This document shows, one piece after another, positions 27,948 to 36,270 of a stretch of DNA of 42,585 nucleotides. Below the pieces are notes generated by a model. That model was not told where the DNA came from. It saw nothing but the letters and a program-made list of their open reading frames with translations, and did no database searches. Each line of letters begins with the position of its first letter. Position 1 is the stretch's first letter. Location: assembly GCA_002457735.1 (NCBI GenBank), contig NTKO01000007.1:1-42585 (forward strand), in the 5' to 3' direction. Made by a program: the position numbers and the translations under genes. This DNA comes from Bacteroidetes bacterium MED-G13. GTDB lineage: Bacteria; Bacteroidota; Bacteroidia; Flavobacteriales; Flavobacteriaceae.

Positions 27948-28505
27948 TTATTTTGAAGAAGGTTTTTCTTTTTTAGATGAACTGTCCTTAACTGCGCGTG
28001 CCTCCTCAGCAGCAGGTGCCTCTTTAGCGGCAGAAGTCTCCTCTGCATTAGATGCTAACTCATTAGAAGATTTAGATTCATTAGTATTTTTACTACCCCT
28101 TCTACTTCTTCTTGTCGATTTTTGCTTTTTTTCATGTGAAAATACATCATTATAATCAACAAGTTCAATCATAGCCATTTCTGCATTATCACCAAGTCTA
28201 TTCCCAAGTCTTACCACTCTTGTGTAACCTCCCGGTCTGTCAGCTACCTTAACAGAAATCTCTCTAAAAAGCTCAGAAATTGCATTTTTTTGTTTAATTC
28301 TTGAAAAAACAATCCTTCTATTATGGGTGGTGTCAGATTTAGATTTTGTAATTAGTGGCTCAATGAACCTTTTTAAGGCTTTAGCCTTAGCAACAGTTGT
28401 ATTTATTCTTTTATGGTAAATTAAAGAACAAGCCATATTTGCCAACATAGAACTTCTGTGACCTTTTTTTCTTCCTAAATGATTAAACTTTTTTCTGTGC
28501 CTCAT
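27948..28505 (-). CDS. rplQ: 50S ribosomal protein L17 with C-terminal extension
   Basis: Large-subunit protein near the exit tunnel. The core ([21 protein letters not shown], then [23 protein letters not shown]) ends near residue 122. Residues 123-185 form an extension: a basic patch ([11 protein letters not shown]), then an Ala/Glu-rich stretch with EAPAAEEA at 162-169, and a Lys/Ser end. Bacteroidota L17 proteins often carry such tails. The motif resembles the repeat in this genome's L5 tail. It follows rpoA by 19 nt. Confidence 0.95.
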
Positions 28506-35180: not shown

Positions 35181-35450
35181 TTACCAGCTTGCTTTCTTAA
35201 CTCCTGGGATTAAACCTTTATTTGCCATTTCACGAAATAAAACTCTAGAAATACCAAAATTTCTCATGTAACCTTTTGGTCTTCCAGTTAATTTACACCT
35301 ATTATGCATTCTAGTAGGTGATGCATTTCTAGGCAACTTCTGTAAACCTTCATAATCACCAGCCTCTTTTAATACCTTTCTCTTTTCAGCATACTTTTTA
35401 ACTGTCTTTGCTCTCTTAACCTCACGGGCTTTCATTGATTCTTTTGCCAT
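35181..35450 (-). CDS. rpsN: 30S ribosomal protein S14, zinc-free type
   Basis: An 89-residue S14 with [17 protein letters not shown] at the N-terminus and the signature [20 protein letters not shown]. Only one cysteine is present, so it lacks the CxxC...CxxC zinc ribbon of the short S14 form. The frame is open upstream into the L5 repeat tail, but the ATG at 35450, 7 nt after the rplE stop, gives the normal protein. Confidence 0.96.
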
Positions 35451-35457
35451 ATTTGTT

Positions 35458-36270
35458 TTATTCTTTCTTGTTATCATTTTCGGATTCAGACTCTTCCTCT
35501 TGTTTAGCCTCTTCAGGAACAGGTGCTTGCTCAACTGCTGGAGCCTCTTCAGAAACAGGTGCTTCCTCATCTGCCGGAGCCTCTTCAGAAACAGGTGCTT
35601 CCTCATCTGCCGGAGCCTCTTCAGAAACAGGTGCTTCCTCATCTGCCGGAGCCTCTTCAGAAGAAGTTGGTTTATTAGAAACTACTTTGCTTTCTGTTTT
35701 TTCTATAATAACTTCATTACTTCTTCTTTTAAATGGCAAACCTAACTCACTTAAAAGCTGCAAAGCCTCTTTATCAGATTTAGCGGAAGTAACAAAAGTT
35801 ATATCCATACCAGAAATCTTATTAATTTTATCAATATTTATTTCTGGAAATATGATCTGTTCTGTTATACCTAAGTTATAATTGCCACGACCATCAAAAC
35901 CAGAACTCTTTACTCCGTTAAAATCTCTAACGCGAGGAAGAGCAGTGGTAACTAATCTGTCTAAAAACTCATACATATTTTCCCCTCTCAAGGTAACTTT
36001 AACTCCAATTGGCATTCCCTTTCTTAATTTGAAAGATGCAACATCTTTTTTGGAAATAGTAGCAATTGCCCTTTGTCCAGAAATTTCAGAAATTTCATTA
36101 ATAGCATGATCAATTAATTTTTTATCATTAACAGCAGCACCTACTCCTTTTGAAATAACTATTTTCTCAAGTTTTGGTACTTGCATTACATTATCATAGC
36201 TAAACTCTTTGACTAGCTTATCAACTATGCTTGTTTTGTATTCGTTTTTTAATCTTGGTATATAACTCAT
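35458..36270 (-). CDS. rplE: 50S ribosomal protein L5 with long acidic repeat tail
   Basis: Binds 5S rRNA and contacts the P-site tRNA. Residues 1-183 are a complete L5 ([59 protein letters not shown], ending LPFKRR). Residues 184-270 are an extra acidic tail rich in Glu, Ala and Pro, in which the 12-residue unit [12 protein letters not shown] occurs three times, followed by a diverged copy ([12 protein letters not shown]) and an acidic end. The tail is read in frame and ends 7 nt before rpsN, so the extension is real unless the repeat was misassembled. Its role is unknown. Confidence 0.95.
35507..35650. repeat. 36-bp tandem repeat inside rplE (3 perfect copies plus 1 diverged)
   Basis: Units at 35543-35578, 35579-35614 and 35615-35650 are identical. 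The copy at 35507-35542 differs at four positions. A partial fifth unit begins at 35651. Each unit encodes 12 residues on the minus strand, so copy number can change without breaking the frame. Identity at third codon positions points to recent expansion or ongoing homogenisation. Confidence 0.95.

Follow-up and report, generated by a model that had tools for sequence, protein, structure and literature searches.

The ribosomal protein uL5 of Bacteroidetes bacterium MED-G13 carries a repeat-built and highly negative C-terminal tail, 87 residues in size, and tails of the same kind are kept in all sampled members of one Flavobacteriaceae clade. Our preferred reading, which is tentative and to which we give a probability of about 0.4, is that the tail serves as a disordered in-cis polyanion; it would shield the basic face of free uL5 and limit its non-specific RNA binding. 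The window, a stretch of 42,585 nucleotides from contig NTKO01000007.1, is a long ribosomal-protein operon that runs from uS10 to bL17 according to its translations; its G+C content is 32%. The genome (G000) is 1.06 Mb in size, 82% complete and divided into 32 contigs. It gave one uL5 match, indicating a single-copy gene, which is located between uL24 and uS14. The gene occupies 35458-36270 on the minus strand, starts with ATG and encodes 270 residues. The first-pass annotation had placed it at 35458-36015, which covers just the 3′ two-thirds of the gene; its description of a complete core of about 183 residues is correct. The features of the window are as follows.

35722..36270, minus strand: uL5 core, residues 1-183 (NCBIfam NF000585, Pfam L5 N and C domains)
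35458..35721, minus strand: C-terminal acidic tail, residues 184-270, and stop codon (in-frame translation; charge; tails similar in kind in relatives)
35506..35662, minus strand: 36-bp tandem repeat, 4.4 copies, 96% matches, encoding 12-residue units (Tandem Repeats Finder)
35181..35450, minus strand: uS14, the next operon gene, beginning just past the uL5 stop (translation)
27948..28505, minus strand: bL17 with a short KEAPAAEEA tail of the same class (translation; 18-bp repeat at 27998-28033)

The uL5 core is matched by the NCBIfam L5 equivalog model NF000585 over residues 4-182 with 280.5 bits (cut-off 186). Both the N and C domains of Pfam L5 are above their cut-offs, and Ribosomal_L5_C stops at residue 180. 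The tail follows in frame after LPFKRR; as the first-pass annotation had described, translation gives 87 residues with three exact copies of one 12-residue unit and one diverged unit. The net charge is +8 for the core and -24 for the tail, which bears out the earlier description of the latter as highly negative. Among the open frames of at least 100 codons, the tail contains the most negative 60-residue stretch of the window (-24; the next one is -16), and uL5 is the only net-negative one of the 24 ribosomal proteins of the window whose charge was calculated, a set without uL30 and bL36. Ala and Glu together account for 39 of the 87 residues (45%); the tail is also rich in Pro and Val and poor in Lys and Arg. 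AlphaFold predicted no secondary structure for the tail, with pLDDT of ∼33, from a shallow alignment of 16 sequences; stretches of the core, too, scored no higher than 40-75. The tail is probably disordered, as had been proposed before, and its composition is a stronger argument for this than the predicted model.

Two further observations concern the DNA around the end of the gene. The uS14 frame is open upstream through the uL5 repeat (35451-35642, minus strand), where it reads as basic 12-residue repeats; this is probably a by-product of the 36-bp unit being free of stops in that frame. The last residues of the genus tails are alike (ENNKE or NDNKKE type), and the DNA right before the uS14 start is A-rich (window 35461-35500). 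The similar tail ends may reflect the initiation region of uS14 and not the protein.

To the genus of the window belong 21 sampled genomes. uL5 was detectable in 10 of them and was not found in the other 11, all of which are less than 90% complete. In all 10, uL5 reads past its normal end. Seven tails are complete, being 66, 68, 86, 87, 92, 96 and 107 residues in length; in the other three, the contig stops 4, 28 and 44 residues into the tail. These contigs also occur under the names MED649, AG-390-P14, AG-390-J14 and AG-461-G08 (complete tails), AH-321-C13 and AG-461-C17 (cut tails). In one genome (G199, 6% contamination), two uL5 copies are present on contigs C16 and C8 (L038 and L040), with identical tails and different cores; the second copy is possibly an assembly duplicate. 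The family sample of Flavobacteriaceae covers 199 genomes, about one per genus; uL5 was found in 187, and all 187 open-frame lengths were inspected. Four of the 187 are tailed, namely G000, G055, G136 (116 residues) and G004 (46 residues up to the contig end), the last two representing two neighbouring genera. In the remaining 183, the frames are at most 204 residues long including upstream codons, and those that were read have no tail. The tail is thus lineage-specific, as the first-pass annotation had supposed, and the uL5 of relatives in the genus and in two neighbouring genera is tailed, contrary to the refuting case named there, in which every relative would lack it. As to presence, the tail is confirmed as genuine.

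Outside this family, acidic uL5 tails were seen in one more place. The order sample (Flavobacteriales) has uL5 in 135 of 148 genomes, and in a second family of this order (f11) acidic tails of 39-96 residues are present in 10 of the 18 uL5-bearing genomes and absent in the other 8. Different from the tail of the window, the f11 tails consist of charged helix-like stretches or VVKEEP repeats. The class sample has uL5 in 145 of 149 genomes, and none of its 19 loci with longer frames carries a long acidic tail. The phylum sample has uL5 in 143 of 148 genomes; 21 long-frame loci have only 1-12 residues past the core. A third kind of uL5 extension was observed in family f31 of Bacteroidia (loci L198-L201), where lysine-rich ends are 26-31 residues in length; with a net charge of +1 to +3, they are not acidic tails. 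Open-frame lengths include upstream codons, therefore the long-frame loci were read individually. In this way several candidates were rejected: G226 has a frame of 248 residues and no tail, 15 phylum loci have 1-12 residues after the core, 19 further loci have at most 10, G311 is a broken partial match in which no tail was seen, and the RS_4_25 match over query residues 1-210 (L078) is a tail-less uL5.

The history of the tail was followed in two trees. Tree 1 was a rapid LG+G4 reconstruction for 118 loci that used seven neighbouring ribosomal proteins and excluded the uL5 tail; its f11 rows comprise 10 tailed genomes and one tail-less genome. All 12 rows of tailed Flavobacteriaceae group in a single clade with SH-aLRT of 94 (99 for the 11 rows without G004), of which no tail-less member was sampled. 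In tree 2, which includes all 18 f11 rows, tailed and tail-less f11 genomes are interleaved, giving 8 changes of tail state in total, 7 of which are forced by well-supported branches. The tail is stable in the clade of the window and, as the interleaving indicates, labile in f11; gains and losses in f11 are not separable.

Tails of the same class are present on other ribosomal proteins. A search of G000 with the uL5 tail gave one other match, bS16; this search is not exhaustive, as it missed the weaker bL17 tail. At its end, the bS16 of G000 (G000:C23:35982-36149; loci L162 and L177) has a long series of EEAPAA units, as do its relatives in the genus. Of the 21 genus genomes, 15 gave a bS16: 7 copies are truncated by a contig end, and each of the 8 uncut copies carries an EEAP-type tail. 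For bL17, the EEAP tail is long in G210 and G055 and short in the window. The pattern EEAP[AV] matched 17 times in G000, 24 times in G213, 9 times in G055, 11 times in G210 and 17 times in G136, compared to 0 in each reversed control. The matches of G000 fall in bS16 (8), uL5 (7) and, singly, elsewhere (2), so that its only multi-match clusters are in bS16 and uL5, both RNA-binding ribosomal proteins. In G136, three EEAP clusters lie at contig ends. bL25, which also binds 5S rRNA, has an acidic tail of another style (Glu/Gly/Ser type) in all 14 genomes examined (loci L244-L257), whether or not their uL5 is tailed; the bL25 tail of G136 contains SSGDDKQKDGK repeats.

The sequence of the tail changes quickly. 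For G000 and G213, the closest informative pair, dN/dS is 0.03 in the core and 0.72 in the tail, and both tails have a net charge of -24. In six pairs, the tail dN/dS lay between 0.27 and 1.23; for repeats, such values are sensitive to the alignment. The repeat units vary between species, and G211 and G210 have zero amino-acid differences in the uL5 core and tails of 96 and 68 residues, respectively. The bulk properties persist. The net charge of the tails across the clade is about -22 to -32; Phe, Trp, Tyr, His and Cys are absent from eight complete tails (718 residues), and both charge and lack of aromatics hold at saturating synonymous divergence. In an AT-biased neutral simulation started from the G000 tail (-24), the mean charge became -18 at 0.1 and -14 at 0.2 changes per site; started from five complete tails, charge was lost and aromatics and the like were gained, in a simulation that ignores slippage, which could restore composition. 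Taken together, fast sequence turnover with persistent charge and no aromatics supports, and does not prove, a constraint on tail composition, because slippage was omitted and the dN/dS values are alignment-dependent.

A shielding role of the tail is favoured by several of these results: the tail is kept in all 12 clade members, the core is conserved while the tail sequence turns over fast with its charge kept, the tails lack Phe, Trp, Tyr, His and Cys in a composition that neutral simulation loses, and the EEAP clusters of G000 sit only in RNA-binding bS16 and uL5. On the other hand, 183 of 187 Flavobacteriaceae manage without a tail, which counts against this role, as do the range of tail dN/dS and the neglect of slippage in the simulation. 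The tailed cores are no more basic than the tail-less ones (+5 to +11 compared to a mean of +8.0); therefore nothing points to a greater demand for shielding, and compensation for a more basic core is not supported as the reason for the tail.

Nearly as likely is near-neutral repeat growth, in which in-frame slippage lengthened an exposed and tolerant C-terminus and the tail is merely harmless. The composition would then result from re-copying of an initial acidic unit, combined with selection against sticky residues. Such growth agrees with the near-identical 36-bp copies, with repeat units that differ between species, with the unequal G211 and G210 tails behind the same core and with the upper end of the tail dN/dS range. 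Because tail-less f11 genomes stand beside tailed ones, the acidic tail looks dispensable in f11, and this patchiness strengthens near-neutral growth and weakens the shielding role. However, harmless growth does not readily account for the retention of the tail throughout the Flavobacteriaceae clade (12 of 12 members sampled), for charge and lack of aromatics kept at saturating synonymous divergence, or for a repeat class that is concentrated in ribosomal proteins and not in random genes.

Among known structures, 7jil, which we take to be the Flavobacterium johnsoniae ribosome, has a uL5 of 183 residues with no tail, different from that of the window. Its bS16 (188 residues, the same length class) and its bL17 (163 residues, with a low-complexity end) are like those of the genus of the window, and bS16 chain 9zcd_u, near-identical in length to the bS16 of 7jil, ends in EEAPAAEENN. 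Another comparison is offered by Cutibacterium acnes, which belongs to Actinobacteria and not to Bacteroidota. According to PMC10085706, its uL5 also has a C-terminal extension, of 31 residues compared to 87 in the window; the 70S map shows this extension as disordered, its path was followed between H84 and H38 (the A-site finger), and an effect on RelA binding is suggested by the authors. PMC6821194 describes 822 low-complexity regions in the ribosomal proteins of bacteria, most of them at the C-terminus and with Ala and Glu prominent, and regards Ala/Glu tails as frequent and costly features that call for a functional explanation. Its carriers are most often S2, S16 and L25, followed by S3, S6, L3, L10, L17, L19, L21 and L31. 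The window tail is likewise C-terminal, low in complexity, acidic and rich in Ala and Glu, and bS16, bL17 and bL25 of its genus are carriers as well. However, L5 is not named among the carriers listed in the section consulted, and at least 70% Ala+Glu, reached in 402 of the 822 cases (about half, hence typical and not defining), is not approached by the 45% of the Pro- and Val-rich window tail. In the open-licence literature, searched by title or start of abstract, no paper was found to describe a long acidic tail on uL5. The window tail is a larger, repeat-built acidic tail of a known kind on an unusual carrier; the first-pass annotation called it unexpected, which holds for carrier, length and charge and less so for the kind of tail, given the published Ala/Glu tails (PMC6821194), the shorter C. 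acnes extension (PMC10085706) and the bS16 and bL17 tails of the genus.

The shielding role also has models outside the ribosome. According to PMC5606850 and PMC10250230, the acidic C-terminal tip of Hfq and the D/E repeats of eukaryotic proteins are autoinhibitory nucleic-acid mimics, which is a further reason to favour shielding. Like the C-terminal domain of Hfq and D/E repeats of HMGB1 type, uL5 combines an acidic tail (-24) with a basic nucleic-acid-binding core (+8); unlike uL5, those proteins are not ribosomal, and autoinhibition was measured there and is proposed here by analogy. The tail would have arisen in a small-genome Flavobacteriaceae clade, changing in length by in-frame repeat turnover and being kept for length, flexibility, net charge and lack of aromatics, not for its sequence. 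In free uL5, it may mimic a nucleic acid and fold back onto the basic face that binds RNA, which would keep the protein soluble and suppress non-specific RNA binding. 5S rRNA and H84 of 23S rRNA would then displace the tail, which in the finished ribosome would hang free near the central protuberance.

An unlikely alternative is that the tail docks a basic factor involved in the stringent response, hibernation or assembly, recruiting or tuning it near the A-site finger or the central protuberance; the first-pass annotation, too, had suggested that the tail could recruit a factor or act in assembly. The position of the C. acnes extension and its suggested effect on RelA (PMC10085706) give it a possible precedent. 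On the other hand, the repeats share no conserved linear motif across species, and rRNA should repel an acidic tail. A wider extension of the shielding role, in which small-genome marine Flavobacteriaceae have a polyanionic ribosome coat of long, disordered uL5, bS16, bL17 and bL25 tails kept for charge and not for sequence, and the uL5 tail is a built-in RNA-mimicking chaperone gating 5S RNP assembly, which in eukaryotes is entrusted to separate, dedicated chaperones, seems to us quite improbable. An artefact, be it a faulty assembly, a faulty annotation or a tail that the cell does not produce, is largely refuted. An assembly error is ruled out as the source of the tail, because tails of this kind recur in other genomes: G136 and seven genomes of the genus, among them that of the window, have in-frame, stop-ended tails with species-specific sequences. 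What speaks for an artefact concerns copy number, as four tail loci (G217, G214, G201 and G004) are cut by contig ends, repeats disturb assembly, and the exact number of repeats in the window may be wrong, since such tails are a frequent place for short contigs to stop. Contigs of several genomes start or end inside acidic tail repeats (loci L035, L036, L037 and L043; contigs C1, C9 and C13 of G136), so that these tails break short-read assemblies and may hide genes from surveys.

For a protein that binds 5S rRNA, the tails amount to a natural experiment, with a new carrier in one clade and another acidic tail coming and going in f11. The tail-less sister genera provide the controls, and the function of such tails thereby becomes testable.
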